A stretch of DNA of 64,000 nucleotides from Pseudideonella sakaiensis (lineage in GTDB: Bacteria; Pseudomonadota; Gammaproteobacteria; Burkholderiales; Burkholderiaceae_C). The notes under the pieces were generated by a model. The model was given only the letters and a program-made list of their open reading frames with translations, did not search any database and was not told the origin of the DNA. The stretch is from contig NZ_BBYR01000047.1 of the NCBI RefSeq assembly GCF_001293525.1, positions 1-64,000 of the forward strand, read 5' to 3'. Positions 17,042 through 39,424 of this stretch are shown one piece after another. Each line of letters opens with the position of its first letter. The first letter of the stretch is position 1. The position numbers were made by a program, and so were the translations under genes.

Positions 17042-17832
17042 GTGGATCACCCCGCCTCCCCGTCCGTCCCGCCGATCCTGCGCCGCGCCGCGCCGCGCAG
17101 ATCGCCGCGCCCTGGCTGCTGCTGCTGGCGCTGTGGTACCTGGTCCGCGCCAGCGGCCTGGTCAACCCGGCGCTGGTGCCGGCGCCACACGCGGTCGCGG
17201 CCAAGTTCGTCGAACTGGCGCAGGACCGCCTGGGGCTGGACGTCTGGATGTCCACGCAGCGCGTCTTCCTCGGGGTCTTCCTCGGCGTGCTGGTGGCCGT
17301 GCCCGTCGGCTTCGCGATCGGCTGGTACCGCGGCGTGCGCCGCTTCGTCGACCCGCTGATCAACTTCTTCCGCGCGCTGCCGCCGATCGCGCTGATCCCG
17401 CTGGTGATCGTCTACTTCGGCATCGGCGAGGCCGCGAAGACGGTGATCCTGTTCTACGCCGCCTTCTTCGCCGGGGTGATCGTGATGGTCGAGGGCATCG
17501 GCCAGATCAGCCCGATCTACGTGCGGGTCGCGCGCACCCTGGGCGCGAGCGACCGCGAGATCTTCCTGCGCGTGATCGTGCCGCTGACGGTGCCGCACAC
17601 GCTGACGGCGGTGCGGGTGGCGCTCGGCGTGGCCTGGGCGACGCTGGTGGCCAGCGAGCTGATCGCGGCCCAGCAGGGCCTGGGCGCGCTGATCCAGAAC
17701 GCCTCGTCCTTCTTCCAGCTCGACACCATCTACGTCGGGATCATCTGCATCGGCAGCATCGCGCTGGCGATGGACCTGGCGCTGCGCGCGGCCACGCGCC
17801 GGCTGGTGGCCTGGCAGGACCGCCTGGCATGA
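17042..17832 (+). CDS. NitT/TauT-type ABC transporter permease, apparent frameshift near the N-terminus
   Basis: From residue WLLLLALWYLVRASG onward this is a SsuC/TauC-like inner-membrane permease with about six membrane segments. The cytoplasmic EAA-type loop ARTLGASDREIFLRVIVP contacts the ATPase. The main frame has no ATG, GTG or TTG after its upstream stop at 17011-17013 until a GTG at 17176, which would remove the first membrane helix. A GTG at 17042 begins a plausible N-terminus (MDHPASPSVPPILRRAAPR) in another frame. Both frames meet in CGCCG repeated three times (17081-17095). Loss of one such unit, or gain of one base, would join them. It may be a sequencing error, a true mutation or slippage. 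Its stop overlaps the ATPase start (ATGA). Confidence 0.75.
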
Positions 17833-18692: not shown

Positions 18693-18733
18693 GCTTCCCG
18701 CGGCCCGGCCGCACGCCCTTCACGGAGACACCG

Positions 18734-19741: not shown

Positions 19742-19778
19742 GCCCCCCTCGCAGCGGCCCGGTACCGGGAGCCGGCCG

Positions 19779-21416
19779 ATGAGCCAGGAGGTCGCCGGCT
19801 GCGACGTGCTGATCGTCGGCGCCGGCTCGGCCGGCTGCGTGCTCGCGAACCGCCTCAGCGCCGACCCCGCCTGCCGCGTGCTGCTGCTGGAGGCCGGGCA
19901 GGCCGCGCGCCACTTCTGGCTGCGCCTGCCGGTCGGCTACTTCCGCGCGATCTACGACCCGCGCTTCACCTGGCAATTCCCGCTCGAGCCCGAGCCCTCG
20001 ACCGGCGACCGGCCGATCGTCTGGCCGCGCGGCAAGGCGCTCGGCGGCTCGAGCGTGATCAACGGCCTGCTATACATCCGCGGCCAGCCGGCGGACTTCG
20101 ACGACTGGGCGACGCAGCACGGCGCCACCGGCTGGGGCTACGAGGACGTGCTGCCGCTGTTCCGCCGCTCGGAGCGCTATGCGGGCGGGGCCAGCCGCTA
20201 CCACGGCGCCGACGGCGAGCTGTGCGTGTCCGACCTGCGCAACGACCACCCGTACTGCGAGGCCTGGCTGGCCGCCGGTGCAGAGGCCGGGCACCCGCTG
20301 ACCGAGGACTTCAACGGCGCGCGCAGCGACGGCCTGGGCCGCTACCAGCTGACGCTGCGCGGCCACTGGCGCTGCGACGCCGCGAGCGCCTTCCTGGCGC
20401 CGGCGCTGGGCCGGCCCAACCTGCGGGTCCTCACCGGGGTGCAGGCCACGCGGGTGCTGATCGAGCACGGGCGGGCGGTCGGCGTCGAATGGCGGCAGGA
20501 CGGCCGCAGCGGCTCGGCACGCGCGGCCCACGAGGTGATCCTCGCCGCGGGCGCGCTGCAGTCGCCACATCTGCTGCAGCTGTCGGGCATCGGGCCGGCG
20601 GCGCTGCTGCGTCGGCACGGGCTGGCGGTGCAGGTCGATGCGCCGGAGGTCGGCGCCAACCTGCAGGACCACTACCAGGCCCGCGTGATCGTCAAGCTGA
20701 AGCGGCCGCTGTCGCTGAACGACCAGGTGCGCAGCCCCTGGGGGCTGGCGCGCATGGGCGCCGAGTGGCTGTTCCGGCAGCGCGGCCCGCTGACCGTGGG
20801 CGCCGGCCAGGTCGGCGGCCTCGCGCGCACCGAGCATGCGCGCGACGGTCGCGCCGACGTGCTGTTCAACGTGATGCCGCTGTCGGTCGACAAGCCGGGC
20901 GACCCGCTGCACCGCTTCTCCGGCTTCTCGGCCTCGGCGGCCCAGTGCCGACCGGCGTCCAGCGGCACGGTGGCGATCGCGAGCGCCGACCCGCTCGCGC
21001 CGCCGCGCATCCGGGCCGGCTACCTCACCGAGCCACAGGACCTGAAGGTCCTGGTGGCGGGGCTGCGGCAGCTGCGCGAGATCTATGCCCAGCCCGCCTT
21101 CCGCGACCTGGTGACGGGCGAGGAGCACCTGCCCGGTGCCGACCTGCAGGACGAGGCGGCGCTGGCCGCGTTCGCGCGCCGCCGCGGCGGCACGGTGTTC
21201 CACCCGACCAGCACCTGCCGCATGGGCGGCGATGCCGCGTCGGTGGTCGACCCGCGCCTGCGCGTGCGCGGCGTCGACGGGCTGCGCGTGATCGACGCGT
21301 CGGTGATGCCGCGCATGGTCTCGACCAACACCAACGCCGCGACGATCATGATCGCCGAGAAGGGCGCGGCGCTGGTGCGCGAAGATGCGGGCCTGGCCAC
21401 CGACCCGTCCCGATGA
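19779..21416 (+). CDS. GMC family FAD-dependent oxidoreductase (choline dehydrogenase-like)
   Basis: This 545-residue flavoprotein oxidises an alcohol to an aldehyde or ketone. The FAD Rossmann motif is VGAGSAGCVLANRLS, GMC signature 1 is PRGKALGGSSVINGLLYIRG, and signature 2 lies in AAGALQSPHLLQLSGIGP. The catalytic His is in VFHPTSTCRMGG, and the C-terminal block RVIDASVMPRMVSTNTNAA carries the second active-site Asn. It follows the ABC genes by 37 bp and overlaps the GntR regulator (ATGA). The cassette therefore reads import, oxidise, regulate. Choline itself is only one of many substrates known for the family. Confidence 0.92.
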   Translation: MSQEVAGCDVLIVGAGSAGCVLANRLSADPACRVLLLEAGQAARHFWLRLPVGYFRAIYDPRFTWQFPLEPEPSTGDRPIVWPRGKALGGSSVINGLLYIRGQPADFDDWATQHGATGWGYEDVLPLFRRSERYAGGASRYHGADGELCVSDLRNDHPYCEAWLAAGAEAGHPLTEDFNGARSDGLGRYQLTLRGHWRCDAASAFLAPALGRPNLRVLTGVQATRVLIEHGRAVGVEWRQDGRSGSARAAHEVILAAGALQSPHLLQLSGIGPAALLRRHGLAVQVDAPEVGANLQDHYQARVIVKLKRPLSLNDQVRSPWGLARMGAEWLFRQRGPLTVGAGQVGGLARTEHARDGRADVLFNVMPLSVDKPGDPLHRFSGFSASAAQCRPASSGTVAIASADPLAPPRIRAGYLTEPQDLKVLVAGLRQLREIYAQPAFRDLVTGEEHLPGADLQDEAALAAFARRRGGTVFHPTSTCRMGGDAASVVDPRLRVRGVDGLRVIDASVMPRMVSTNTNAATIMIAEKGAALVREDAGLATDPSR

Positions 21417-22144
21417 ACCCGCCGCTCGACAACACCCAGGTTCCGCTCTACGTGCAGCTCGCCGCGCTGTTCCGGCAGCGCATCGCCAAGGGCATCTGGC
21501 GCGAGGGCGACCGCCTGCCCTCGCTGGACCAGCTGGTGACGGAATACGGCGTGGCGCGCGTGACGGCGCGGCAGGCGATTGACCAGCTCGCGCGCGAGGG
21601 CCTGGTCTCGCCGCAGCGCGGCCGCGGCACCTTCGTCACCGGCCAGCCGCACAGCGACCGCTGGCTGCGCGTCGAGACCTCGCTGAAGCACCTGGCCGAG
21701 GTCTATCGCGACACCCAGCCGACCATCCTGACGATCGACACCTCCGAGGCCGGCCGCGCACCGCTGCTGAGCGAGGACGATGGCGTCGCGGCACCGCAGT
21801 ACGTCTACATGCGCCGGGTCCACGCGCACCAGGGGCGGCCCTATTGCGTGATCGACATCCACCTGGACGCGGCGATCTTCGCGCGTGACCCGGAGGCCTT
21901 CCGCCAGGGCACGGTGATCCCGCTGCTGACCTCGCTGCCCGGCCTGAAGATCGCGACCGCGCGCCAGGTGCTGACCATCTCGACCGCCGACCTGGAGGTG
22001 GCCCGCCACCTGGGCATCGGCGTGAACGCCCCGGTGGCCGAGGTGCGGCGGGTCTTCACCGGCGCGCGGCGGCGCGTGATCTACGTCGGCCACGTCGTGT
22101 ACCGCGGCGACTTCATCCACCTCGAGATGGACCTGAAGGCCTGA
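21413..22144 (+). CDS. GntR/HutC family transcriptional regulator
   Basis: This 243-residue regulator has an N-terminal winged helix (PLYVQLAALFRQRIAKGIW, then RLPSLDQLVTEYGVARVTAR and LVSPQRGRGTFV) and a C-terminal UTRA effector-binding domain from about residue 90. HutC-type members usually repress the adjacent catabolic operon until its substrate or an intermediate binds. Its ATG overlaps the stop of the GMC oxidoreductase gene, making it the last gene of the transporter operon and a likely autoregulator of the divergent region near 17000. It converges on the HpsP-like gene with a six-base gap. Confidence 0.92.
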   Translation: MNPPLDNTQVPLYVQLAALFRQRIAKGIWREGDRLPSLDQLVTEYGVARVTARQAIDQLAREGLVSPQRGRGTFVTGQPHSDRWLRVETSLKHLAEVYRDTQPTILTIDTSEAGRAPLLSEDDGVAAPQYVYMRRVHAHQGRPYCVIDIHLDAAIFARDPEAFRQGTVIPLLTSLPGLKIATARQVLTISTADLEVARHLGIGVNAPVAEVRRVFTGARRRVIYVGHVVYRGDFIHLEMDLKA

Positions 22145-22150
22145 TCGCCC

Positions 22151-23152
22151 TCAGGGCCGCAGCACGATCTTCGCCGCCGCGCACTGCCCGCGGTCGAGGT
22201 CGACGAAGGCGCCGGGCCCGTCGGCCAGCGGCCGCTCCTCGACCCAGGCCAGGTCGCCGAAGACCCCGCGGTCGAGCGCCGCAACGGTGGCGTTCAGGTC
22301 GGCGGTGGTGTAGGTGTAGGTGCCCAGCAGCGTGATCTCGGCCAGCGTCAGCTTGCGCATGTCGATCTCGCTGGCCCAGTCCTGCAGCCCGATGTGCATC
22401 ACCACGCCGCCGGGCTTGATGGCCGCGAAGGCCTGCTGGCGCGTCGCCTTCGCGCCGACCGCGTCGATCACGAAGTCGAAGGCGGCGTCGGGCAAGGGCG
22501 TGGCACGCGGGTCCACGGCGGCGCAGCCGACGTGCTCGGCGATGGCCTGGCGCCGCAGCGGGTTCAGCTCGGTCATCGTCAGGCCGGCCACACCGAGGTG
22601 GCGCAGCAGCAGGCCCGCCAGCAGGCCGATGGCCCCGCCGCCGATGACCAGCACGCGGCACTCGTGCAGCGGCCGCACGAGCGCACGCATCGAGAGGTTG
22701 ACCGCATGCCAGGCGGTGGCCGCCGGCTCGGTCAGCGCCGCCCGCGTCGCCGGCATCGCCGGCGGCATCGCGATCAGCGACGCGGCCGGGATGCTCATGT
22801 ACTCGGCATAGGCGCCGGGGCGCGTCATGCCGACCATGCTGCGGTGCGCGCACAGGTTGTTGCGGCCCTGCTGGCAGTACTCGCAGCGGCCGCAGACGAT
22901 CAGCGGGTTGCCGGTCCAGCGCGTGCCGACCGCATAGCCGGCCGCGCGCGAGGCCTCGATGCGCCCGACGAACTCGTGGCCCAGCACCAGACCGGGCTGG
23001 CGCCGCGGGTCGTGGCCATGCCAGGCGTGCAGGTCCGAGCCGCAAATGCCGACGGCCTCGATGCGCAGCAGCACCTCGCCGTCCGCCGCCTCGGGCATCT
23101 CGCGGTCGAGCAGCTGCATCTCGCCGGGTTGGGTGTAGACCAGGGCTTTCAT
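22151..23152 (-). CDS. hpsP: zinc-dependent alcohol dehydrogenase, HpsP-like (DHPS dehydrogenase)
   Basis: This 333-residue medium-chain dehydrogenase has catalytic zinc ligands in GICGSDLHAWHG and LGHEFVG. The four structural-zinc cysteines are in CGRCEYCQQGRNNLC, and the NAD loop is IGGGAIGLLAGLLL. The HpsP-like name rests mainly on context. It follows an SDR gene and an HpsN-like gene in the order N-O-P known for 2,3-dihydroxypropane-1-sulfonate (DHPS) degradation, where HpsO and HpsP are proposed to interconvert DHPS enantiomers through the 2-keto form. Sequence alone would allow other polyols. It lies 44 bp after the SDR gene and is the last gene of the operon. Confidence 0.7.
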   Translation of the reverse strand: MKALVYTQPGEMQLLDREMPEAADGEVLLRIEAVGICGSDLHAWHGHDPRRQPGLVLGHEFVGRIEASRAAGYAVGTRWTGNPLIVCGRCEYCQQGRNNLCAHRSMVGMTRPGAYAEYMSIPAASLIAMPPAMPATRAALTEPAATAWHAVNLSMRALVRPLHECRVLVIGGGAIGLLAGLLLRHLGVAGLTMTELNPLRRQAIAEHVGCAAVDPRATPLPDAAFDFVIDAVGAKATRQQAFAAIKPGGVVMHIGLQDWASEIDMRKLTLAEITLLGTYTYTTADLNATVAALDRGVFGDLAWVEERPLADGPGAFVDLDRGQCAAAKIVLRP

Positions 23153-23196: not shown

Positions 23197-27777
<4,581 letters not shown>

Positions 27778-27856: not shown

Positions 27857-28621
27857 TCAGCGCCCCCACCCGGCCTGGATGCGGCGCTCGGCCAGGCCGA
27901 GCGCCAGGTCGATCGCGACGCCGACCAGCCCGATCGCGACCATGCCGGCCATCACCACCGGCGTGAGCACGTTGAGCTGGCCCTGCACCATCATGTAGCC
28001 GACGCCGCTGCCGACCACGATCAGCTCGGCGCCGATCAGCGACTGCCAGCCGATGCCGGCGCTGACGCGCAGCCCCGCGACGATCGACGGCAGCGAGGCC
28101 GGCAGCAGCACCTCGCCGACGATGCGCGGGCCGCTGGCACCCAGCGTGCGCGCGGCCTCGACGAGCCGGCGGTCGACGTACTTCGCGCCGCGGTAGGCAT
28201 TGATCAGGCAGGGCGGGAAGGCGCCCGAGAAGATGACCAGCGTCGGCCCGCCGATGCCGGTGCCGAACCACAGCCCGGCGAAGGGCACCCAGGCGATCGG
28301 CGCGACGAAGCGCAGCGCCTCGAAGAAGGGGCTGACCACGTCGTCCAGCCAGCGGTACCAGCCCATCAGCAGGCCGAGCGGGATGCCGATCGCCGCGGCC
28401 AGCAGGAAGCCGGTGCCGAAGCGCCCGAGGCTGGCCGACAGGTGGCCCCAGAGCGTGGCGCCGGAGTAGGGGTCGTGCGTCAGCTCGACCATGGTGCGCA
28501 GCACCGCCGCCGGGCTGGGCAGGTAGCGCGGCGGGAACAGGCCGCTGGCCGCCAGCACCTGCCACAGCACGAAGAAGCCGGCCAGCCCGGACAGCGAGAG
28601 CAGCAGGTCGCCGCGGGTCAT
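27857..28621 (-). CDS. ABC transporter permease (SsuC/TauC type)
   Basis: This 254-residue inner-membrane permease has about six hydrophobic segments. The first is LLLSLSGLAGFFVLWQVLAA, and the last lies in VAIGLVGVAIDLALGLAERR. The coupling loop is RTLGASGPRIVGEVLLPASL. I chose the ATG at 28621 because it gives the ATGA overlap used throughout this operon; an ATG four codons upstream (28633) is equally possible. Two different permeases in one system suggest a heterodimeric membrane channel, where most sulfonate transporters have a single permease gene. Confidence 0.9.
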   Translation of the reverse strand: MTRGDLLLSLSGLAGFFVLWQVLAASGLFPPRYLPSPAAVLRTMVELTHDPYSGATLWGHLSASLGRFGTGFLLAAAIGIPLGLLMGWYRWLDDVVSPFFEALRFVAPIAWVPFAGLWFGTGIGGPTLVIFSGAFPPCLINAYRGAKYVDRRLVEAARTLGASGPRIVGEVLLPASLPSIVAGLRVSAGIGWQSLIGAELIVVGSGVGYMMVQGQLNVLTPVVMAGMVAIGLVGVAIDLALGLAERRIQAGWGR

Positions 28622-29451
28622 CGGTCGAGCCATGGCATCACCCTGCCTTCCAGGCGCTCCAGCGCCTTCGTCATCGCCGCACCCAGCAGGCCCACCCAGA
28701 CCATCGCGAACAGGATCATGCCGGGGTTGATGTCCAGCGCGGCATTCGCCAGCACCTTGCCGAGGCCGGTGAAGGCCCCGACGAGCTCGGCAGCGACCAG
28801 CGTCATCCACGCGGTCTGCAGCGACAGCCGCAACCCGGTGAAGATCATCGGCAGCGCGCCCGGCACCAGCACCTCGCGCACCAGCTGGTGCGGCCGCGCG
28901 CCGTGCACCCGGGCCGCCTCGAGCAGCGTGGGGTCGACGTTGCGCACGCCGGCATAGGTGTTGATCAGCGCCGGCGTGAAGGCCGAGACCCAGATCAGGA
29001 AGATCTTGGCCGCATCGCCCAGGCCCAGCCAGAGGATGGCCAGCGGGATCCAGGCCAGCGGCGGGATCGGCCGCAGCAGCGAGAAGACCGGGCCGATCAG
29101 CGCGTCCGCGCGCCGGCTGGCGCCCATCAGCAGGCCGACCGGCACGCCGGTGCCCACCGCCACCACGAAGCCCATCAGCACCAGGCGGCAGCTCTGCAGC
29201 ACGTGCTGCCACAGCGTGCCGCCGGCATAGCCGGGCGACTGGACGATCTGCGCAGCAGCCCGGCCCACGTCGGCCGGCGTCGGGAAACGGCCACCGCTGA
29301 CCACGCCCAGGCGCGCCAGCAGGAACCAGCTGCCGAGCGCGAGCAGCAGCGCGACCGTGCCGACGATCAGCCGGCGCCGCCGCGGGCGCGGCCGCGCGCG
29401 GGCGGGAGCGGCCGGCGTCGCGGCCTCGAGGCGGGCGGATCCGGCCGTCAT
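28618..29451 (-). CDS. ABC transporter permease (SsuC/TauC type)
   Basis: This 277-residue permease has a basic N-terminal cytoplasmic tail (RARPRPRRRR) followed by about six membrane segments. The coupling loop is AARVHGARPHQLVREVLVPGALP. It is paralogous in layout to the next permease but clearly divergent, as in FSLLRPIPPLAWIPLAILWL against FEALRFVAPIAWVPFAGLWF. Both of its ends are ATGA-coupled, to the reductase gene before it and the permease after it, so the two proteins should be made in equal amounts and probably form one transporter. Confidence 0.92.
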   Translation of the reverse strand: MTAGSARLEAATPAAPARARPRPRRRRLIVGTVALLLALGSWFLLARLGVVSGGRFPTPADVGRAAAQIVQSPGYAGGTLWQHVLQSCRLVLMGFVVAVGTGVPVGLLMGASRRADALIGPVFSLLRPIPPLAWIPLAILWLGLGDAAKIFLIWVSAFTPALINTYAGVRNVDPTLLEAARVHGARPHQLVREVLVPGALPMIFTGLRLSLQTAWMTLVAAELVGAFTGLGKVLANAALDINPGMILFAMVWVGLLGAAMTKALERLEGRVMPWLDR

Positions 29452-30404
29452 CGCGGCACCTGCGCGAGGTCTTCGAGCAGCAGCAGCATCGCGGTGCAGT
29501 CCTGCTCCTCGCGCCCCCAGGACTTGGCGAGCGCGAACATCTCGCGCGCATAGCCGCCGAGGCCGAGCGGCGCGCCGACGGAGGCGGCCAGGTTCATCGC
29601 GAGGTGGATGTCCTTGTAGCCCATGCGCAGCGGGAAGTCGGGCGTGACGTCGCCGGCCAGCACCTTGTGCGGGTAGTTGGTGTTGAGCTGGCCGCGGCCG
29701 GCCGCGGTGGTGGACAGCACCTTCACCACCGTGGCGCGGTCCAGCCCCAGCTTGGCCGCGAACATCAGTGCCTCGGCGGTCATCACCATCCCCACCATGC
29801 CCATGTAGTTGTTGACGAGCTTGAGCCGGATGCCGCTGCCGCGCGGGCCGACGTGGACGATGGTGTCCGCCAGCGCCTCGAACAGCGGGCGGGCGCGCGC
29901 CACGTCCTCCGTGTCGCCGCCGGCCATCACCAGCGCGCGACCGGCCGCCGCCTCGCGCGGCGTGCGGCCGACCGGTGCGTCGATGCAGCGCAGGCCGGCC
30001 GCGGCCAGTTCGGCGGCGATGCGGTCGGTCTCCAGCGCGTCGCCGGTGCTCATCTCGATCACCAGCGCCCCATCGGCCAGCACCGCGGCGGCGCCGCCGC
30101 GGCCGGCCTCGCCGAACAGCACCTGGCGCGTGTGCGCCGAGGTGGGCAGCATCGTGACCAGCACCGCGGCACCGCGCGCCGCGTCGACGGGATCAGCGAA
30201 CAGCGGGCAGCCGAGGTCCGCGAGGCGCTCGAGCGTGGCGGGCGAGGCATCGCAGCCGCGGCAGTCGGCGCCGGCGCGCACCAGGTTGCGCAGCATCGCG
30301 CCGCCCATCACGCCGAGGCCGACGAAGGCCACCGGGCCGAGCGCGCGCAGGGTGGCCGGATCGGGCCGGGCGGGCGCGCCGCCCGCGGGGGTGGCGGCGC
30401 TCAT
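29448..30404 (-). CDS. NAD-binding beta-hydroxyacid dehydrogenase, sulfolactaldehyde reductase-like (YihU type)
   Basis: This 318-residue enzyme has the cofactor motif VGLGVMGGAMLRNLV, the substrate loop DAPVGRTPREAAAGRALV, and the catalytic lysine in IRLKLVNNYMG. Typical hydroxyisobutyrate dehydrogenases have DAPVSGG; the DxPVGRT form, the NNYM helix and the TAAGRGQLNTNYPHKVLAGD segment resemble E. coli YihU, which reduces sulfolactaldehyde to DHPS. With HpsNOP downstream this gives a coherent C3-sulfonate route. It could instead act on another hydroxyacid. It is coupled to the transketolase C subunit upstream and a permease downstream. Confidence 0.78.
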   Translation of the reverse strand: MSAATPAGGAPARPDPATLRALGPVAFVGLGVMGGAMLRNLVRAGADCRGCDASPATLERLADLGCPLFADPVDAARGAAVLVTMLPTSAHTRQVLFGEAGRGGAAAVLADGALVIEMSTGDALETDRIAAELAAAGLRCIDAPVGRTPREAAAGRALVMAGGDTEDVARARPLFEALADTIVHVGPRGSGIRLKLVNNYMGMVGMVMTAEALMFAAKLGLDRATVVKVLSTTAAGRGQLNTNYPHKVLAGDVTPDFPLRMGYKDIHLAMNLAASVGAPLGLGGYAREMFALAKSWGREEQDCTAMLLLLEDLAQVPR

Positions 30405-31432
30405 CGCGGGGCCTCCCAGAGCGCCTGCAGCCGCGCCGCGATGGCCTCGGCATCCAGCCCGTACTTGCGGAACAGGTAGGGCGTGCTGCCGCCTTCGGCG
30501 AAGGTGTCGCGCACGCCGACGCGGTCGAAGCGGGCGGCCACGCCGGCCTCCATCAGCGCCTCCGCGACGGCCGAGCCGAGGCCGCCGATGATCGAGTGGT
30601 TCTCCGCCGTCAGCACCACGCGGCAGCGGCGCGCCATCGCGACGACGGTCTCGACGTCGAGCGGCTTGATCGTGTGCACGTTGACCACCGCCACCTCGCG
30701 GCCGAGCGGCGCCAGCCGGGCCGCCGCGTCGAGCGCCGGCTGCACCAGCGCGCCGCTGGCGAACACGACGGCGTCGTCGCCGTCGCGCAAGGCTTGCGCG
30801 CGGCCGATCTGCAGCGGCTGCAGCGGCTGCCCGGCCGGCAGCGGCGCGTCGGCACGGCGCAGCCGCAGGTAGACCGGGCCGTCGTGCGCCGCCGCCGCCT
30901 GCACCGCCGCACGCACCTGGGCCGGGCCGCTGGGCTCGACGATCGTCATGTTCGGCAGCGCGCGCATCAGCGCCACGTCCTCGATCGCCTGGTGCGACAC
31001 GCCCAGCAGCGTGGTCAGCCCCGGCAGGAAGCCCACCAGCTTGACGTTGGCGCGCGGGTAGGCCACCTGCATCGCCACCTGGTCGAAGGGCCGGCGCGTG
31101 GCGAAGACGCAGAAGGTGTGCAGGAAGGGGATCTCGCCGCAGCCGGCCATGCCGCCGGCCATCCCCACCATGTTGGCCTCGGCGATGCCGGCGTTGTGGA
31201 AGCGCGCGGGCAGGCGGTCGCGGAACAGGTCGGTCTCGGTGGCGCCGGTCAGGTCCGCGCACAGGCAGACGATGCGTTCGTCGGCCAGCGCCGCCTCGAG
31301 CAAGGCCTCGCCGTAGACGCGCGGCACCGCGCCGCGCGTCGTGAAGTCGGAGACAGTGAGGCCGGCGGCCGCCGCGGGAGCGGTGGCGGTGGCGGTGGCG
31401 GTGGCGGCCAGGGACCGGGCGGGGGCCGTCAT
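30401..31432 (-). CDS. transketolase, C-terminal subunit (pyrimidine-binding and C domains)
   Basis: This 343-residue protein is the second half of a split transketolase. The ThDP pyrimidine-binding domain carries the catalytic Glu in FHNAGIAEANMVGMAGGMAG. The C-terminal transketolase domain follows from about residue 215 (VFASGALVQPALDAAARLAP, VVNVHTIKPLD). The first 20 residues contain an Ala-Thr repeat from a GGTGGC DNA repeat (about 31382-31407). Split transketolases occur in several pathways, including the sulfoglycolytic transketolase route, where one acts on 6-deoxy-6-sulfofructose. It is coupled to the N subunit upstream and the YihU-like reductase downstream. Confidence 0.9.
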   Translation of the reverse strand: MTAPARSLAATATATATAPAAAAGLTVSDFTTRGAVPRVYGEALLEAALADERIVCLCADLTGATETDLFRDRLPARFHNAGIAEANMVGMAGGMAGCGEIPFLHTFCVFATRRPFDQVAMQVAYPRANVKLVGFLPGLTTLLGVSHQAIEDVALMRALPNMTIVEPSGPAQVRAAVQAAAAHDGPVYLRLRRADAPLPAGQPLQPLQIGRAQALRDGDDAVVFASGALVQPALDAAARLAPLGREVAVVNVHTIKPLDVETVVAMARRCRVVLTAENHSIIGGLGSAVAEALMEAGVAARFDRVGVRDTFAEGGSTPYLFRKYGLDAEAIAARLQALWEAPR

Positions 31433-32283
31433 GCCGCCACCTCCGCGGCGTCCAGCACCGCGAGGGCGCGGCGCGTGTCTTCGGGCGAGAGCTTCATGTT
31501 GTGTCCCAGCTGGCCTTCCAGGAAACCGACCCCCTTGCCGACGAGGGTCGTGGCCGCGATCACCGTCGGCCGGTCGCGCGTCGCGTCGGCCTGCGCCAGC
31601 GCGCGCTGCAGCGCGGGGATGTCGTGACCATCCACGGCCAGCGCCTGCCAGCCGAAGGCGCGCCACTTGTCGAGCAGCGGCTCGTGGCGCAGCACCTGGT
31701 CGGTGTGGCCCTCGACCTGCATGAAGTTGAGGTCGATCACGACGCACAGCGACGCGATGCCGTGGGCGCCGGCGTACATCGCGGCTTCCCAGACCTGGCC
31801 TTCCTGCAGCTCGCCATCCCCCAGCACCACGTAGACGCGCGCCGGGCTGCCCCGCCGCCGCAGCGCCAGCGCCATGCCCAGGCCGACCGACGGCCCCTGG
31901 CCCAGCGAGCCGAGCGTGGCCTCGACCAGCGGCCCGAGGCGCTGCGAAACGTTCACCTCCAGCGTCGAGCCGTCCTGCACGTAGCTGTCCAGCCGCGCCG
32001 GATCGATCAGGCCGCGCCGCGCCAGCGCGGCATGGAACAGCGCCGAGTTGTGCGCGGTCGAGAGCAGGAAGCGGTCGCGGTCGGGCCAGCGCGGGTCGGC
32101 GGCGCGCAGCCGCAGCGTCGAGAAGAACAGCGTCGCGAACAGGTCGGCGGCGCCCAGGCCCTGCTGGACATAGCCCTGGCCGAGCGCGCCGACGAGGCGG
32201 ACCACGTCGCGTCGCATCGCGTGGGCGTGGGCGGCGAGGGCCGCGGGATCGTGCGTGCGGGGGTCGTGGTCGGTCGGTGTCAT
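31429..32283 (-). CDS. transketolase, N-terminal subunit (ThDP diphosphate-binding domain)
   Basis: This 284-residue protein holds the transketolase diphosphate-binding domain. LGAADLFATLFFSTLRL, FLLSTAHNSALFHAALARRG and GPSVGLGMALALRRRG are present. The ThDP motif runs from GDGELQEGQVWEAAMYAG to the Asn in CVVIDLN. It is about the length usual for the N subunit of split transketolases, and the catalytic Glu is on the partner encoded next (ATGA overlap). A transketolase moves two-carbon ketol units. Here it would be expected to cleave or rearrange a sulfonated ketose, which is inference from the neighbours. Confidence 0.92.
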   Translation of the reverse strand: MTPTDHDPRTHDPAALAAHAHAMRRDVVRLVGALGQGYVQQGLGAADLFATLFFSTLRLRAADPRWPDRDRFLLSTAHNSALFHAALARRGLIDPARLDSYVQDGSTLEVNVSQRLGPLVEATLGSLGQGPSVGLGMALALRRRGSPARVYVVLGDGELQEGQVWEAAMYAGAHGIASLCVVIDLNFMQVEGHTDQVLRHEPLLDKWRAFGWQALAVDGHDIPALQRALAQADATRDRPTVIAATTLVGKGVGFLEGQLGHNMKLSPEDTRRALAVLDAAEVAA

Positions 32284-32290: not shown

Positions 32291-33391
32291 TCAGCGTGGG
32301 GTGCGCCGGCGCGGCGCGGTGCGCGGGGCCGGCGCGGCGGCAGGGGTCTCGCGTCGCTCGGCCGGCGGCGCGGTGGTGCCGCGCACCACCAGCTCCAGCT
32401 CGCAGCACAGGTGGTCCGGCTCCAACGGCCGCTCGGCCGCGGCCGCCGCCAGCAGCCGCGCGCCGGCCTGCTGGCCGATCTCGAACGCCGGCACGTGCAG
32501 CGTGGTGATGCCGGGCTTGCAGTGGGCGGCCATCTCGATGTCGTCGAAGCCGGTGATCGAGATCTGCTCGGGCACGCGCAGCTCGCGCCACAGGCATTCC
32601 TGCAGCGCGCCGTAGGCCAGGATGTCGTTGCCGCACATCACGGCCGTCGGCGGCTGCGCGCGCCGCAGCAGCATGGCCATCGCGCCGCGCGCCTCGGCCA
32701 CGGTGTAGGGCCGTTCGATCACCGCGGCGTCGGGCAGCTCGACGCCGCGGCGCGCCAGCGCCCGCCGGAAGCCGAGCACGCGGTCGGCCGCGCGGTCGTT
32801 GTCGCGCGTGATGCCGGCGAGCACGCCGAAGCGGCGGTGGCCGATGTCGAGCAGGTAGTCGGCCATGCGCTCGGCGGCGGCCACGTTGTCCCAGCCCAGC
32901 GTGGGCCAGGCGCTGCCGGCATCGTGGTGGCAGGTGGTGACGAAGGGGATGCGGCGCGCCTGCAGCATCTCGATCACGCCGGGGCCGCGGCGCGTGCCGA
33001 TGAGCATCACGCCGTCGATGCCGCGCTCGATCAGCGCGCGCACCTCGCTGGCTTCGCGCGCCGGCTCGTAGGCGCTGCTGGCCAGCAGCAGCTGGTAGCG
33101 CTGCGCGTTCAGTTTGTGCTGCAGGCCTTCGACGATGCGCGCGAACAGCGCGCTGTCGACCGTGGGCACCACCACGCCCATCGTGAGCGTGCGCCGCAGC
33201 GTCAGCGAACGGGCCGCACCGTGCGGCACGTAGCCCGCCTTCGCGAGCACCGCCTCGGCCTTCGCACGCAGCGCGGGCCGCACCTGGTCGGGGTGGTTCA
33301 GCACGCGCGACAGCGTGGCCGCGGAGATGCCGCTCTGGTCGGCGAGGACCTTCAGCGTACCGGTCGGCAGGGGCGGGGTGGCAGCAGGCAA
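32291..33391 (-). CDS. LacI family transcriptional regulator
   Basis: The helix-turn-helix TLKVLADQSGISAATLSRVL with the hinge segment LAKAGYVPHGAARSL is followed by a periplasmic-binding-like effector domain (TMGVVVPTVDSALFARIVEG through ISITGFDDIEMAAHC). The start is uncertain. A TTG at 33391 gives 366 residues with the HTH near the N-terminus, as usual; a GTG at 33469 is in frame but would place the palindromic operator at 33413-33426 inside the coding region. No strong ribosome-binding site precedes either. It is the first gene of the operon, seven bases before the transketolase N subunit, and probably represses it until a sulfonate intermediate binds. Confidence 0.88.
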   Translation of the reverse strand: MPAATPPLPTGTLKVLADQSGISAATLSRVLNHPDQVRPALRAKAEAVLAKAGYVPHGAARSLTLRRTLTMGVVVPTVDSALFARIVEGLQHKLNAQRYQLLLASSAYEPAREASEVRALIERGIDGVMLIGTRRGPGVIEMLQARRIPFVTTCHHDAGSAWPTLGWDNVAAAERMADYLLDIGHRRFGVLAGITRDNDRAADRVLGFRRALARRGVELPDAAVIERPYTVAEARGAMAMLLRRAQPPTAVMCGNDILAYGALQECLWRELRVPEQISITGFDDIEMAAHCKPGITTLHVPAFEIGQQAGARLLAAAAAERPLEPDHLCCELELVVRGTTAPPAERRETPAAAPAPRTAPRRRTPR

Positions 33392-33412
33392 GGCAGGAAG
33401 AACGGCCGTTCT

Positions 33413-33426
33413 TGAATGCGCATTCA
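33413..33426. promoter_or_regulatory. LacI-type operator, site 1
   Basis: TGAATGCGCATTCA is a perfect 14-bp palindrome with the central CG typical of LacI-family operators. It lies just upstream of the regulator's probable TTG start, so it is well placed to autorepress the minus-strand operon. It matches site 2 at 12 of 14 positions. Confidence 0.7.
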
Positions 33427-33521
33427 GGACTTGCTGCGCATTGCAACACAGCCAACCGTCGATTTCCACCCGATCGAATCAGGGCATTCCCGGGTTCCGG
33501 GCCGATTTCGGCGCAGATCGT

Positions 33522-33612: not shown

Positions 33613-34683
33613 ATGCCGACCCCCCGTCCTTCCGCCTGGCGCCGCCGCGTCGTCGCCCTGGCCTGCGCTGCCGGCGTGATGGCCACCGCCGCGGTGCCGG
33701 CCGCCGCCCAGGCGCCGACGCCGATCAAGATCAGCTACCAGATCGCGTACTGGGCGCTGCCGATCTACGTCGCCACCGAGAAGAACTGGTGGGCCGAGGC
33801 CGGCCTGAAGCCGGAGTTCGTGGTCTATCCGGCCGGGGCGCAGCAGATCGCTGGCGCACCCAGCAAGTCCTGGGACGTCGGCGGCACCGGTTCACCGCCG
33901 GCGGTGCTGGGCGCGCAGCGCTACGACATCGTGACCATCGGCATCACCAACGACGAGTCGGCCACCAACGCGGTGGTGGCGCGCAAGGACAAGCTGGCCG
34001 CGATCAAGGCCAACCCGGCGAAGGAGCTGAAGGGCCAGCAGATCCTGCTCAGCCCGAACTCGACCGGCGAGTACGCGACCATGGCCTGCCTGCGCAAGTG
34101 GGGCCTGCAGCGCAGCGATGTGGGCATCGTCACGCTGGCGCCGGCCCAGCTGGTGTCGGCCTACACCGGCGGCAACGGCATGCTGGCGGGCACCTGGGCG
34201 CCGAACACCTACACGCTGAACGAGCAGATCGGCGCCGAGGTGATCTGCAGCGGCAAGGACGCCGGCGCGCTGGTGCTGGGCGCGCTGATCGCGCGCAAGG
34301 AGTTCGCGCAGCAGAACCCGGACGCGGTGGCGCGCTTCCTCGCCGTCTACCTGCGCGCCGTGAACTACCAGAAGAACAACCGCGCCGAGTTCATGGCCTC
34401 GCTGCGCAAGTTCTTCGAGGTCAACGGCATCAAGCTGAAGGACGCCTACCTCTCGACCGAGATGGAACGCCCGATCTACCCGCTGGACGAGCAGCTGCGG
34501 CTGCTGTCGCGCGCATCCGGCCCCTCCACCGCGGACGGCGCCTTCGAGGCGCTGTCGGGCTACCTGAAGAGTGTCGGCACCCTCAGCGAGGTGCCGGACC
34601 CGAAGGGCTACATCACCGACCAGTACCTGAAGGCGCTGGACGCGAACCCGACGCTGAAGGCCTTCGCCAACAAGGCCCAGTGA
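33613..34683 (+). CDS. ABC transporter substrate-binding protein (SsuA/TauA type)
   Basis: This 356-residue protein has a secretion signal (RRRVVALACAAGVMATAAVP, cleavage near AAAQA). The binding fold starts ISYQIAYWALPIYVATEKNW, with GTGSPPAVLGAQRYDIVTIG and SAYTGGNGMLAGTWAPNTYT further on. It is divergent from the operon whose transporter has two permeases and an ATPase but no binding protein, and it shares the operator region, so it is the obvious missing component. AGGAGA lies upstream of the ATG. The ligand is inferred to be the sulfonate degraded by the operon; the sequence alone shows only the family. Confidence 0.9.
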   Translation: MPTPRPSAWRRRVVALACAAGVMATAAVPAAAQAPTPIKISYQIAYWALPIYVATEKNWWAEAGLKPEFVVYPAGAQQIAGAPSKSWDVGGTGSPPAVLGAQRYDIVTIGITNDESATNAVVARKDKLAAIKANPAKELKGQQILLSPNSTGEYATMACLRKWGLQRSDVGIVTLAPAQLVSAYTGGNGMLAGTWAPNTYTLNEQIGAEVICSGKDAGALVLGALIARKEFAQQNPDAVARFLAVYLRAVNYQKNNRAEFMASLRKFFEVNGIKLKDAYLSTEMERPIYPLDEQLRLLSRASGPSTADGAFEALSGYLKSVGTLSEVPDPKGYITDQYLKALDANPTLKAFANKAQ

Positions 34684-34773: not shown

Positions 34774-35751
34774 TCAGTCGGCCGAGATCTTCGCGCTGAC
34801 GATCAGGCGGCCCCAGCGCTCGACCTCGTTCGCGAGGAAGGTCTGGAAGGCCTTCGCATCGCGGGCATCGACCCGGAAGCCCAGCGTGCGGGCGCGTTCG
34901 CCCACCTCGGGTGCGGCCATGATCTTCACCGCCTCGGCCGACAGCGCGTCGACCACCGCGTCGGGCGTCGAGGCCGGCACCAGCATGCCGGTCCAGCTCT
35001 CGATCGCCAGGCCCGGCATGCCGGCCTCGGCCGACGTGGGCACGTCGGGCAGCGACGGGATGCGCGCGCTGCTGGCCACGGCGAGCGCCCGCAGCTTGCC
35101 GCTCTTGATGTGCGCCATTGACTCCGGGTAGTTGGAGAAGACCACGTCCAGCTGCCCGCCGATCAGGTCCGTCATCGACGGTGCGCCGCCCTTGTAGGGC
35201 ACGTGCTGGATCGAGGTCTTCGCCAGCTCGTTGAACAGCGCCAGCGTCAGGTGCGGCGGGGTGCCATTGCCGCTGGAGCCCGCGTTCAGCTTGCCGCCCT
35301 TGGCCGCGGCCACCAGGTCCTGCAGGCTCTGCAGGCGGCTGCCGGCCGGCACCACGACGACCATCGGCGAGCCCGCCAGCAGCGCCACCGGCCGCAGGTC
35401 CTTCAGCAGGTTGTACGAGGCCTTGGGGTAGAGGGTGTGGTTGATCGCATGCGCCAGCGTGATCGCCAGCAGGGTCTGGCCGTCGCCCGCGGCCTTCGAG
35501 GCCTCGGCCGCGCCGATCTGGCCGCCGCTGCCCGGCTTGTTGTCGATCACGACGTTGAGCTTCCAGCGCTCGCCGAGCTGCTGGCCCACCAGGCGGGCCA
35601 TCACGTCGGTCAGGCCGCCCGGCGGGAAGGGCACGATGTAGCGCAGGGTGCTGCCGGCCTTCGGATAGCCGCCGACCGGGCCCTGGGCCCAGCTCGACAG
35701 GGGAAGCAGGGCCGGCGCCAGGCCGGCCTGCAGCAGCGTGCGTCGTTGCAT
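34774..35751 (-). CDS. Bug/TctC-family extracytoplasmic solute-binding protein
   Basis: This 325-residue protein starts with a signal sequence (MQRRTLLQAGLAPALLPLSS, cleavage near WAQG). The Bug pattern follows: LRYIVPFPPGGLTDVMARLV, VIDNKPGSGGQIGAAEASK, HVPYKGGAPSMTDLIGGQLD and LPDVPTSAEAGMPGL. GGAG upstream supports the ATG at 35751 over one nine codons earlier. It is the last gene of the sulfolactate operon. Tripartite tricarboxylate transporters with a TctC-like binding protein (SlcH) are known with sulfolactate genes elsewhere, so sulfolactate is a reasonable ligand, although no TctA/TctB membrane genes are present. Confidence 0.9.
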   Translation of the reverse strand: MQRRTLLQAGLAPALLPLSSWAQGPVGGYPKAGSTLRYIVPFPPGGLTDVMARLVGQQLGERWKLNVVIDNKPGSGGQIGAAEASKAAGDGQTLLAITLAHAINHTLYPKASYNLLKDLRPVALLAGSPMVVVVPAGSRLQSLQDLVAAAKGGKLNAGSSGNGTPPHLTLALFNELAKTSIQHVPYKGGAPSMTDLIGGQLDVVFSNYPESMAHIKSGKLRALAVASSARIPSLPDVPTSAEAGMPGLAIESWTGMLVPASTPDAVVDALSAEAVKIMAAPEVGERARTLGFRVDARDAKAFQTFLANEVERWGRLIVSAKISAD

Positions 35752-35866
35752 GTCTCGTCTCCAAGTGTCGGCCGGCATGCTGCCCCGGGGCCGGGCATGC
35801 TGCCAGCAGGAAAAGCGTCGATCGATCCCCGAAAAACGTCCGAGGCCGCGCAGGGCCCCGGCGGCT

Positions 35867-36874
35867 TCAGGCCGCGGGCCAGCCGGCCAGCAGCGCGTCC
35901 GGCACCTCGAGGCCCTCGGCCCGTGCCTTCGCGAGCAGCGCCTCGCGCCGTTCGCCGGGCAGGCGCACGCCCTCGTCGCGCAGCATTTCGGCCACCAGCA
36001 CCTCCAGCCGGTCGAGGAAGGCCTCGCGGCCGGCCAGCGCCCCCGGGTCGATGACCAGGAAGGTCTGCCCCAGGCGCGGGCGGTTGCCTTCGTCGACGAA
36101 GAAGCTCGAGGCCTCGAAGCCGTAGTTCGCGCCGATCAGCGCCGTCACCAGCAGCTCGACCACCAGCGCCAGCATCGCGCCCTTGGGGCTGGACACCGCG
36201 CCGATCGGCAGCATCGAGCCGGCCAGGCCGGCCTTCGGATCGGTGGTCGGGCGCCCGTCGGCGTCCAGCGCCCAGCCTTCGGGGATGGGCTGGCCGGCCT
36301 TCGCGGCCACCATCAGCTTGCCGCGCGCGACCTCCGACAGGCTCAGGTCGACCATCAGCGGCAGCGCCGGCGCGCGCCGCGGGAACACCGCGGCCACCGG
36401 GTTGGTGCCGAAGACCGGGTGGCGCCCGCCGGCCGCCGGCATCGCCGACGGCGAGTTCGAGAAGCCCAGCCCCACCAGCCCGGCCGCGGCCACCGGGCGC
36501 AGGTGGTCGACGACCACGCCACAGTGGTGGCTGGCGACGACGCCGACCAGCGCCACGCCGCATTCGCGCGCCCGCGCGATCGCCTCGGCCACGGCCTGCT
36601 CGCAGGCGGGGAAGGCCAGGCCCTCGCGGGCATCGACCACGGCCGTGCCGCCCTTCGCGCGGACCAGCGCGGGCTCCGCCGCACCGTCGGCGCGGCCGTT
36701 GCGCAGGTGGGTCGCGTACTGGGCGACCCGGCTCAGCCCGTGCGAGCCCAGTCCCTGGGCCTCGGCCAGCACCAGCGCCCGCGCGGTGGCGGCCGCCATC
36801 GCGTCACCGGCGCCGGCCGCGCGCAGCGCCGCCGCCACGCGCGCCCGTGCCTCCTCCATCGTCAGGCGTGCCAT
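35867..36874 (-). CDS. comC: (R)-sulfolactate dehydrogenase, ComC-like (malate/L-lactate dehydrogenase family)
   Basis: This 335-residue NAD(P)-dependent enzyme belongs to the Ldh_2 family, not the classical lactate dehydrogenases. LGSHGLSRVAQYATHLRNG, the catalytic His region VASHHCGVVVDHLRPVA, FGTNPVAAVFPR and SSPKGAMLALVVELL are hallmarks. Paired with SlcC, ComC interconverts sulfolactate enantiomers via sulfopyruvate, providing the (R) form for SuyAB. The assignment rests on family plus context; in isolation it could be a malate or ureidoglycolate dehydrogenase. Its ATG overlaps the SlcC stop by one base (TGATG). Confidence 0.8.
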   Translation of the reverse strand: MARLTMEEARARVAAALRAAGAGDAMAAATARALVLAEAQGLGSHGLSRVAQYATHLRNGRADGAAEPALVRAKGGTAVVDAREGLAFPACEQAVAEAIARARECGVALVGVVASHHCGVVVDHLRPVAAAGLVGLGFSNSPSAMPAAGGRHPVFGTNPVAAVFPRRAPALPLMVDLSLSEVARGKLMVAAKAGQPIPEGWALDADGRPTTDPKAGLAGSMLPIGAVSSPKGAMLALVVELLVTALIGANYGFEASSFFVDEGNRPRLGQTFLVIDPGALAGREAFLDRLEVLVAEMLRDEGVRLPGERREALLAKARAEGLEVPDALLAGWPAA

Positions 36875-37797
36875 CAGCCGAGCGCCTCCAGCACGCGCTG
36901 CGCGATCATCGAGGACACGCGTTCGTTGGCCTCGACCGACAGGCCCGCGATGTGCGGCGTCAGCACCAGCCGCGGGCAATCGACGAAGGCCCCGCCACCC
37001 GGCAGCGGTTCGTCGGCGAAGACGTCGACCGCCGCGCCGCCGAGCCGCCCCTCGCGCAGCGCCGCGGCCAGCGCGGGCTCGTCGACGATGCCGCCGCGCG
37101 CGGTGTTGATCAGCACCGCGCCCGGCTTCATCGCCGCGAGGCGCCGGGCATCGAACAGGTGGCGGGTCGAGTCGACCAGCGGCACGTGCAGGCTGACGAC
37201 GTCGGCCTGCGCGACCAGCTCGTCGAGGCCCACCGGCGCCACGCCGGTGTCCCGGTAGACCGGGTGCCCGGCGCCGAGCGCCGCATCGCTGGCGATGACC
37301 CGCATGCCGATGCCCTGCGCGAGCCGCGCGGTGAGCTGGCCGATCGCGCCGAAGCCGACCAGGCCCAGGGTCTTGCCGCCGGCCTCGCGCCCGTTGATGA
37401 GCGCGGGCCGCGGCCAGGCGCCCGCGGCGACCTGCGCGCTGGCCTGGTAGGCGCCGCGCAGCAGCAGCATCGCCGTCGCGACCACGTACTCGGCCACGCT
37501 CAGCGCGTTCGCCCCGGTGGCCGGGATGACCGCGATGCCGCGGGCCTCGCAGCCGGGGACGTCGATGTTGTCCAGCCCCACGCCCAGGCGCCCGACGACG
37601 CGGCAGCGCCCCAGCGTGGCGAGCAGTTCGCCGCGCACCTGGGTGCGGTTGCGCACCACCAGCGCGTCGGCCAGCGCCGCCTGCGCGTGCAGGCGCGCCG
37701 GGTCGTCGACGAGCGTCGGGTCGTAGACCACCTCGTGGCGGGCGGCGAGCTGCGCCACGGCGGGCGCGTCCATGAACTCCGTGATGACGATCTTCAT
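36874..37797 (-). CDS. slcC: (S)-sulfolactate dehydrogenase, SlcC-like (2-hydroxyacid dehydrogenase family)
   Basis: This 307-residue D-2-hydroxyacid dehydrogenase has GRLGVGLDNIDVPGCEARG and the NAD loop TLGLVGFGAIGQLTA. The catalytic Arg is in INTARGGIVDE, Glu in VFADEPLP, and His in LTPHIAGLSVEANERVS. It lacks the ACT domain of SerA, so it is not the serine-biosynthesis enzyme. The N-terminus MKIVITEFMDAPAV and the position beside ComC and SuyAB fit SlcC, which oxidises (S)-sulfolactate to sulfopyruvate. It is encoded 58 bp after suyB. Confidence 0.82.
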   Translation of the reverse strand: MKIVITEFMDAPAVAQLAARHEVVYDPTLVDDPARLHAQAALADALVVRNRTQVRGELLATLGRCRVVGRLGVGLDNIDVPGCEARGIAVIPATGANALSVAEYVVATAMLLLRGAYQASAQVAAGAWPRPALINGREAGGKTLGLVGFGAIGQLTARLAQGIGMRVIASDAALGAGHPVYRDTGVAPVGLDELVAQADVVSLHVPLVDSTRHLFDARRLAAMKPGAVLINTARGGIVDEPALAAALREGRLGGAAVDVFADEPLPGGGAFVDCPRLVLTPHIAGLSVEANERVSSMIAQRVLEALG

Positions 37798-37855: not shown

Positions 37856-39031
37856 TCACGCGGACTCGAACAGGCGCGTCAGCACGAACTCGCGGTGCCC
37901 CAGCGCCTCGGCCGCCGTCAGCCGGCCGTTCGCGGTGCGCAGCATGCACTCCAGCAGCTTGTCGCCGGCCTGGTCGAGGTTGATCTCGCGCTGCAGCAGC
38001 CCCGAGGTGTCGACGTCGATGTGCTCGCTCATCAGCCGCACGGTGCGCGGGTTCGCGCAGATCTTGATCACCGGCACGATCGGGTTGCCGATCACGTTGC
38101 CCTGCCCGGTGGGGAAGAAGTGCACCGCATAGCCCGAGGCGGCGCACAGCGTGACCATCTCGGCGGCGGCCGACGACGAGTCCATGAACCACAGGCCCGG
38201 GTGGGTCGGCATCTCGGCCTTGTCGATCACGCCGTCGACCGTGCACTTCTTGCCGATCTTCTGGATGTTGCCGAGCGCCTTCTCCTCGATGGTCGTCAGG
38301 CCGCCGGCGATGTTGCCCTTGGTCGGCTGCGAGTCGGACAGGTCGCTGGTCTTGTGGCGGTTGATCATGTCCTGGTAGCGGTTGAACATGAACATGAACT
38401 TGTCGCGCACCTCGGTGGTCTTGCAGCGCTCGGCCACGATCTTCTCGCCGCCGGTGATCTCGGAGGTCTCGCCGAAGCACAGGTAGTTGCCCAGCGGGTG
38501 CAGCTTGTCGAAGGCGTTGCCGACGGTCGGGTTGGCACCGCAGCCGGACGTGGTGTCGCTCTCGCCGCACTTGGTGGAGACCCACAGCTCGTGGATCGGG
38601 CAGACCTCGCGCTGCTTCTCGCTCGCCCACTGGACGAACTCGCGCGCCGCCTTGCTGGCCTTCATGATGGTCTCGTGGTCGCCATGGCCCTCGATGCCGA
38701 AGCCGACCACCGGCTTGCCCGTCGTGGCGATGCCGTCGACCACCTTCTTGGTCCAGCCGTCCTCGATGCCGATCACCACCACGGCGGCCACGTTGGGGTT
38801 GCAGCCCGCGCCGATCAGGGTGCGGAAGTGCAGCTCCAGGTCCGCGCCGAACTGCAGGCGGCCGTAGGGGTGCGGGATCGCCATCGCCCCCTTGATGTTG
38901 TGCGCCACCGCCTCGGCGGCCGCGTTCGACAGGTCGTCGAGCGGCAGGATGATGACGTGGTTGCGCACGCCCACGCGGCCGTTCTCGCGGCGATAGCCCA
39001 GGAAAGTCGTGTCTTTGCTAACGATGCTCAT
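37856..39031 (-). CDS. suyB: (R)-sulfolactate sulfo-lyase, large subunit
   Basis: This 391-residue protein of the altronate/galactarate dehydratase (UxaA) superfamily splits (R)-sulfolactate into pyruvate and sulfite together with Suy[61 protein letters not shown] and [20 protein letters not shown] fit the SuyB branch. SDTTSG and [10 protein letters not shown] differ from the usual sugar-acid dehydratase forms. The cysteines in KCGESD and SGCGAN are candidate iron-sulfur or metal ligands. The start at 39031 gives the usual length; an ATG eight codons earlier (39055) is possible. Context with SuyA, SlcC and ComC makes the assignment strong. Confidence 0.88.
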
Positions 39032-39115
39032 GTCGATGTCTCGATGATTGACCATGGATCAAGCGGCCACCACGGAACCGGCTCCGCCGGGCCGTCGGTG
39101 GCGCCCCCCTGGGGG

Positions 39116-39142: not shown

Positions 39143-39424
39143 TTACCAGCGCTTCGTCTTGATGTTCTGGACGTGTGCGTGCTCGCCCACCTTGATCGGG
39201 GCCACGACCTTGCCCATGTCGATGCCGTACTTCAGCACCGTGTCGCCGACGGCCATGTCCTTCAGCGCCACCTTGTGGCCGATCGGGATGTCCTGGCGGG
39301 CCTGGACCTCGATGGTCCGGTCCTCGTCCATGATCCAGCCGGTCATCGCGGTGCCGGCCTTCACGCCTTCGACGACGACGACGGCGACGGTGTCGTTCGC
39401 ATCGTGCAGAACGAAGTGAATCAT
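39143..39424 (-). CDS. suyA: (R)-sulfolactate sulfo-lyase, small subunit
   Basis: This 93-residue SAF-domain protein is the small partner of SuyB. IHFVLHDANDTVAVVVVEGV, DIPIGHKVALKDMAVGDTVL and YGIDMGKVVAPIKVGEHAHV match the N-terminal domain of altronate dehydratase-like enzymes. The C-terminus HVQNIKTKRW resembles the HNLKTKRW end of that domain. AGGAG lies upstream of the ATG at 39424. It is the first gene of the operon and is separated from suyB by 111 bases containing a hairpin, which might set a different expression level for the two subunits. Confidence 0.88.
   Translation of the reverse strand: MIHFVLHDANDTVAVVVVEGVKAGTAMTGWIMDEDRTIEVQARQDIPIGHKVALKDMAVGDTVLKYGIDMGKVVAPIKVGEHAHVQNIKTKRW

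Follow-up and report, generated by a model that had tools for sequence, protein, structure and literature searches.

What a transketolase might contribute to an operon for the breakdown of three-carbon (C3) sulfonates is the question raised by a stretch of 64,000 nucleotides from Pseudideonella sakaiensis (contig NZ_BBYR01000047.1, positions 1 to 64,000; hereafter the window). Its minus-strand span 29448-32283 consists of exactly three genes, with overlaps of 4 bases between each, coding for the two subunits of a split transketolase (TK), i.e., the thiamine diphosphate (TPP)-binding TK-N (31429..32283, 284 aa) and TK-C (30401..31432, 343 aa), and for a beta-hydroxyacid dehydrogenase of the YihU-type sulfolactaldehyde reductase kind (SLAR; 29448..30404, 317 aa plus Met). 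The identification of these genes in an earlier note on this DNA is borne out by exact coordinates and by the best PDB matches, which are the two chains of the Carboxydothermus split transketolase for TK-N (6yak, 225 bits) and TK-C (6yaj, 235 bits), and the E. coli 3-sulfolactaldehyde reductase YihU for the SLAR (6sm7, 212 bits, about 40% identity). The association of TK, SLAR and C3 sulfonates is genuine and conserved, and apparently undescribed, whereas its mechanism is something we infer: the TK pair might be a thiamine-diphosphate enzyme in an operon for 2,3-dihydroxypropane-1-sulfonate (DHPS) and sulfolactaldehyde (SLA), cleaving a sulfo-ketol to SLA for the SLAR, an answer put forward tentatively and with somewhat less than even confidence.

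That the TK-SLAR arrangement is not due to chance follows from its conservation in other genomes. When a TK-C alignment was scanned against 84,980 species genomes, 43 loci were obtained, and subsequent gene calling and comparison placed TK and SLAR within one cluster in seven loci, namely the window, L032, L033, L036, L074, L118 and L120. The full cassette, comprising an SsuABC-type transporter, SLAR, TK and HpsNOP, is present in the window, in L032 (genome G047, from the same family as the window genome) and in L033, and HpsN/O/P accompany TK and SLAR in L118 and L120 as well, i.e., in five loci altogether. The genomes of L032 and L033 also encode a SuyB that is 83-90% identical to that of the window; in the four other TK-SLAR genomes, those of L036 and L074 included, no close SuyB was found but only relatives with 30-34% identity. 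In L036 and L074 the arrangement is reduced to a minimal unit of a divergent LacI, two permeases, an ATPase, a binding protein, SLAR, TK-N and TK-C, with unrelated genes on its flanks. A version with a TRAP transporter occurs in L118 (Azospirillum) and L120 (Lautropia), where SLAR, TK and HpsNOP are joined by a fused E1, a VOC protein and a second short-chain dehydrogenase/reductase (SDR), and in Lautropia additionally by an E2.

The SLARs of all seven loci form one supported clade together with that of G286, a genome from another family of the same order, and the arginine of the PV[GC]R motif is kept throughout. The window SLAR retains the PVGRT motif with its arginine, which we take to be the diagnostic residue of YihU, as well as an intact NNYM motif, and scores 257.9 bits on the NCBIfam model NF012005, below the cut-off of 348. 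At the thresholds used this type of SLAR is rare, being found in 2 of 399 genomes of the order, in one of 369 genomes of the class (the window's own), and, for the class of Azospirillum, in one of 385 (the reference genome of that search), where it lies within the TK cluster. The TKs linked to SLAR, in turn, occupy three places on the TK tree. A single clade of SLAR-linked TKs was ruled out by the approximately unbiased (AU) test (p-AU 3.5e-6); the partnership therefore spans three TK lineages, and was either repeatedly recruited or is ancestral and was often lost. As a separate observation, in L124 and L130 (Methylobacterium and Paracoccus plasmids) YihU-like reductases adjoin two short thiamine-diphosphate proteins, possibly subunits of a sulfopyruvate decarboxylase.

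Both the TPP motif GDGE...N of TK-N and the catalytic glutamate motif GIAEAN of TK-C are intact. The subunits score 227 and 221 bits on the NCBIfam transketolase equivalog and do not reach its cut-off of 488, which is a weak test because such models are built for single-chain enzymes. The residues of the substrate pocket were numbered by alignment to human transketolase, in a comparison of sequences, and their roles in phosphate binding and in the ketol site are presumed from established knowledge. According to the list of active-site residues in PMC8016368, three of the four sugar-phosphate ligands are gone from TK-C (R318 is replaced by P37, S345 by A64 and H416 by L136), R474 alone being kept as R190, and D424 is replaced by L143. 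The earlier note had regarded conservation of this site in the C subunit as incompatible with its proposal; by sequence, it is not conserved. In TK-N, two ketol-site histidines are changed (H37 to Y38 and H110 to N111), while H77 and H258 are kept. By these residues the subunits do not look like those of an ordinary sugar-phosphate enzyme, yet the pocket does not speak in favour of a sulfonate enzyme, because the losses are family-wide: H37 to Y and the loss of R318, H416 and D424 are general, A, P, S, G or Q occurs at the S345 position, and nearer members have N at the H110 position. Pocket loss was accordingly ruled out as a proof that a sulfonate is used. A post hoc observation concerns TK-C position 64, the S345 position, where each of the seven SLAR-linked TKs has Ala but none of the 40 others does; only this column and that of TK-N M263 passed a filter for near-discriminating columns.

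Relatives of the TK with 56-65% identity adjoin class-III aminotransferases, amidases, penicillin acylase or proteins resembling dimethylformamidase (DMFase-like). Related split TKs lie together with a class-III aminotransferase and a GntR regulator in L077 (8991-16791, on the Variovorax paradoxus VAI-C plasmid), L080 and L081, of which L077 additionally has amidases and a penicillin acylase; this suggests that the TK substrate in this branch is amine- or amide-derived. In L051-L055 (Rhodobacteraceae), a mandelate-racemase-type dehydratase and an FMO-like monooxygenase come after the TK pair, and the cluster opposite to these genes comprises a sulfatase, a formylglycine-generating enzyme (FGE), a tripartite transporter and another, distant split TK pair.

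The substrate and acceptor of the TK, the direction of the SLAR and the action of the TK before the SLAR are what we infer from these observations. In the proposed sequence of events, the TK would cleave an imported or metabolically made alpha-hydroxyketone with a 2-hydroxy-3-sulfopropyl end (R-CO-CHOH-CHOH-CH2-SO3-), the R-CO part being transferred to an acceptor bound without the classical phosphate site, with release of SLA; R might be HOCH2-, which would make the substrate a C5 sulfo-ketose, or some other group. SLA would then be reduced to DHPS by the SLAR, DHPS would be converted to sulfolactate by HpsN (with HpsO/P), and sulfolactate to pyruvate and sulfite via SlcC/ComC and SuyAB. The minimal cassettes of L036 and L074 would be expected on these terms, because TK and then SLAR would suffice, and they are most simply read as a system in which a ketol is cleaved first and the SLA so released is reduced by the SLAR. 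The release of SLA by a TK acting first, as the earlier note had proposed, hence stands as plausible, with genomic support from the conserved TK-SLAR unit and the minimal cassettes; its argument from the C3 genes does not, because DHPS uptake explains the handling of C3 sulfonates fully, without a TK as their source. The C5 sulfo-ketose donor named in the same proposal was not upheld: no gene points to one, and none of five sulfo-pentose names searched occurs in the open literature searched. A direct action of the TK on 3-hydroxy-2-oxopropanesulfonate was set aside, as the usual cleavage between C2 and C3 has no leaving aldehyde there.

A cassette in which the TK is replaced comes from G286, whose SLAR matches that of the window at 72%. 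Its cluster (G286:C12, comprising L127 10522-19397 and L128 78-4081) is a DHPS/SLAR/SsuABC cassette in which permeases, SLAR, LacI, a binding protein, HpsNOP and an ATPase precede E1, VOC and E2, the latter three in place of TK, and a TK search across the order (E <= 1e-80), which matched three other genomes only, found no TK of this type in G286. The E1 and VOC proteins are 61-76% identical to their counterparts in L118 and L120, and the Lautropia E2, to which the G286 E2 is related, is an acyltransferase of the acetoin-dehydrogenase type (251 bits, cut-off 307). Acetoin dehydrogenase complexes cleave alpha-hydroxyketones into acyl-CoA and aldehyde. Both TK and E1/E2 might accordingly use ketols of one kind in the vicinity of SLA, a suggestion that falls short of proof. 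Extended further, these findings might reflect an undescribed sulfonate pathway in which thiamine-diphosphate enzymes release SLA from a sulfo-ketol by means of interchangeable modules (a split TK lacking the phosphate site, E1/E2 and possibly a monooxygenase of the Baeyer-Villiger type), which we consider possible but doubtful.

Several observations weigh against the cleavage of a sulfo-ketol by the TK. There is no gene to supply or mark a larger sulfo-ketol, and HpsNOP together with SuyAB already account for the cluster as one of DHPS catabolism. The same residue losses are found outside sulfonate clusters, in most members of the wider TK family. The count of TK-SLAR adjacencies is partly ascertained, because the six loci other than the window were found through TK; searches led by SLAR in the order and class samples gave two matches outside the window, one within a TK cluster (in a genome already known) and one not. 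Besides, a YihU-type enzyme adjoins GabD in a TauE/TRAP cluster that has no TK, and may work oxidatively there. Finally, L118 and L120 carry TK and E1-VOC together, and the two modules are therefore not strictly exclusive.

TK-N, TK-C and SLAR head, after a LacI-family regulator (32291..33469, minus strand; NCBIfam LacI-type matches, GTG start, the true start possibly lying downstream), a run of 11 genes in the same direction that continues with two permeases, an ATPase, a Baeyer-Villiger-type monooxygenase (BVMO), HpsN, HpsO and HpsP. Its junctions are 4-base overlaps with four exceptions, i.e., a 7-base gap between LacI and TK-N, a 16-base overlap between the permeases, and gaps of 79 bases ahead of the ATPase and 44 bases ahead of HpsP. 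The DHPS 3-dehydrogenase HpsN (23961..25274) has 771 bits to the sulfopropanediol 3-dehydrogenase structure PDB 8v35 and 79% identity to HpsN of Cupriavidus pinatubonensis, the HpsO-like short-chain DHPS dehydrogenase (23197..23964) has 64% identity to HpsO of that species, and the HpsP-like Zn-dependent DHPS dehydrogenase (22151..23152) has 62% identity to the gene that occupies the HpsP position in C. pinatubonensis, where it bears the annotation galactitol-1-phosphate 5-dehydrogenase. Beyond a divergent binding protein gene lie, on the minus strand, a Bug/TctC-type substrate-binding protein (34774..35778; 55% to Bug of the C. pinatubonensis hps-suy cluster), a ComC-like sulfolactate dehydrogenase (35867..36874; 196 bits on the NCBIfam L-sulfolactate dehydrogenase model, cut-off 500), an SlcC-like D-2-hydroxyacid dehydrogenase (36874..37797; NCBIfam 2-hydroxyacid dehydrogenase matches, adjoining comC and suyB), and the large and small subunits of sulfolactate sulfo-lyase, SuyB (37856..39055) and SuyA (39143..39424), with 86% and 74% identity to the C. 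pinatubonensis genes. The view that the neighbours handle C3 sulfonates was thereby confirmed. HpsO and HpsP were reported to convert R- and S-DHPS into SLA, and HpsN to convert R-DHPS to sulfolactate (PMC11131964); given these roles and the identities of HpsN/O/P and SuyAB to C. pinatubonensis, the window appears to encode a complete route from DHPS to pyruvate and sulfite.

The operon might therefore serve DHPS only, the SLAR being a further DHPS/SLA oxidoreductase that works oxidatively and the TK taking SLA as acceptor for salvage, detoxification or stereochemical recycling. Apart from the complete route, with its production of SLA by HpsO/HpsP, and the YihU-type enzyme next to GabD, it speaks for this explanation that the window cluster showed no SLA dehydrogenase, as SLA could then build up. 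However, the clusters of L036 and L074 hold TK and SLAR without HpsNOP, and transketolation of SLA would give a larger sulfo-ketose for which no processing enzyme is evident, which makes a role confined to DHPS rather unlikely.

Alternatively, the TK might, in common with many of its relatives, use a non-sulfonated ketol or aldehyde, e.g., one derived from an amine or amide, and reside in the operon because a conjugate of this moiety with DHPS is imported or for regulatory reasons. The neighbourhoods of the 56-65% identical relatives, the same losses in their pockets, and the BVMO in the window and L032 are in line with such a substrate, but the pairing with a YihU-type SLAR, repeated in three TK lineages, and the alanine at TK-C position 64 of the SLAR-linked TKs render it unlikely.

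The pathway enzymes of sulfoquinovose breakdown were looked for as well. As stated in the earlier note, the 20 window proteins scanned include neither a sulfoquinovosidase nor an isomerase or kinase, and the YihQ (sulfoquinovosidase) model matched nothing above cut-off in seven genomes, the window's own included, although this search is weak for divergent enzymes because the E. coli control also stayed below the cut-off. The claim that sulfoacetaldehyde enzymes are missing holds within the window; across the genome the argument from their absence fails because Xsc is present on another contig (G000:C65:9441-11195, 1022 bits, cut-off 676), as it is, above the cut-off, in four of the six other TK-SLAR genomes. 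The TK might also correspond to the second half of the sulfo-TK pathway and split a C4 sulfo-ketose to give sulfoacetaldehyde, which Xsc would consume and the SLAR-like enzyme would handle; this is highly unlikely in spite of these Xsc matches, since the cluster neighbours are C3-specific, Xsc lies on another contig, no SqwI-like isomerase is among the window proteins scanned, and SqwF of the known pathway is a metal-dependent alcohol dehydrogenase and not a beta-hydroxyacid dehydrogenase (PMC12890257).

Import is represented by two SsuC/TauC-type ABC permeases (28618..29451, an open reading frame, and 27857..28633, with NCBIfam TauC/SaoP matches) and an ABC ATPase of the taurine/nitrate type (26980..27777; NCBIfam SaoA/TauB matches), all on the minus strand, and by the divergent NMT1/SsuA-type substrate-binding protein (33613..34683, plus strand; Pfam NMT1, NCBIfam SsuA_fam 113 bits, below cut-off). 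Both the first permease and the binding protein are kept in L032, L033, L036, L074 and G286. The FMO-superfamily BVMO (25271..26983, minus strand) has Pfam FMO-like matches and 296 bits on a PtlE-like NCBIfam model, below cut-off; its gene overlaps hpsN by 4 bases inside the sulfonate operon, its counterpart in L032 is 71% identical, and none was found in L033. Adjoining hpsP, the interval 17700-22144 holds a second ABC ATPase, an SsuA-type binding protein, a GMC oxidoreductase and a GntR regulator. At 48427-50061 there is an acetolactate-synthase-type TPP enzyme near Bug-type binding proteins, with a weak score of 204 bits on the Xsc model (cut-off 676).

In the sulfur cycle, DHPS and sulfolactate are abundant currencies; the routes to C3 sulfonates in the literature surveyed proceed by aldolase, transaldolase or Entner-Doudoroff (ED)-type reactions, with no transketolase route among them. 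If the TK indeed feeds SLA into HpsNOP/SuyAB, a natural sulfo-ketol may exist that has so far not been looked for. As the recurring TK-SLAR unit comprises only a few proteins (binding protein, SLAR, TK-N and TK-C), the question is directly testable. In the open literature searched, which mostly lacks subscription papers so that absence is no proof, transketolase in sulfonate catabolism is described for sulfofructose only; the three papers naming transketolase together with hpsN all concern sulfoquinovose by their titles and abstracts, in none of which a TK-SLAR-Hps association is described.

Amongst known systems, the SqwGH pathway of Clostridium sp. MSTE9, Acholeplasma and Faecalicatena is similar in that a transketolase of two subunits acts in organosulfonate catabolism beside a sulfo-aldehyde enzyme. 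Its substrate is 6-deoxy-6-sulfofructose, its acceptor glyceraldehyde 3-phosphate (GAP) and its end product sulfoacetaldehyde (PMC12890257, PMC11659671), whereas here the neighbours are those of C3 sulfonates, neither SqvD (sulfoquinovose (SQ) isomerase) nor SqwI (sulfoerythrose (SE) isomerase) is among the 20 window proteins, no SqwF/SqwD sulfoacetaldehyde enzyme was seen in the cluster, Xsc lying elsewhere in the genome, and the equivalents of R318/S345/H416 are replaced, where the use of GAP and phosphoketoses by SqwGH would lead one to expect a phosphate-binding site. The Carboxydothermus split transketolase (6yaj/6yak) shares the two chains and the TPP and catalytic glutamate motifs, but keeps the substrate-site Arg, Ser, His and Asp that the window TK has lost. 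YihU shares about 40% identity, the PVGRT arginine and NNYM with the window SLAR, which belongs to a separate clade, falls below the NCBIfam cut-off and has Gly after NNYM where YihU has Ser. DHPS degradation in C. pinatubonensis and Roseobacteraceae resembles the window in hpsN-hpsO-hpsP, suyAB and Bug (55-86% identical) and in a LacI beside hpsN, that of C. pinatubonensis being 37% identical to the window LacI, but the annotated C. pinatubonensis cluster has an MFS transporter and is without TK, SLAR, BVMO and SsuABC-type transporter. Although Paracoccus wurundjeri obtains SLA from a KDSGal aldolase after an ED-like route, without a transketolase (PMC12421959), its sulfofucose pathway ends in the same way, leading from SLA to sulfolactate (SL) and on through SlcC/ComC to SuyAB.

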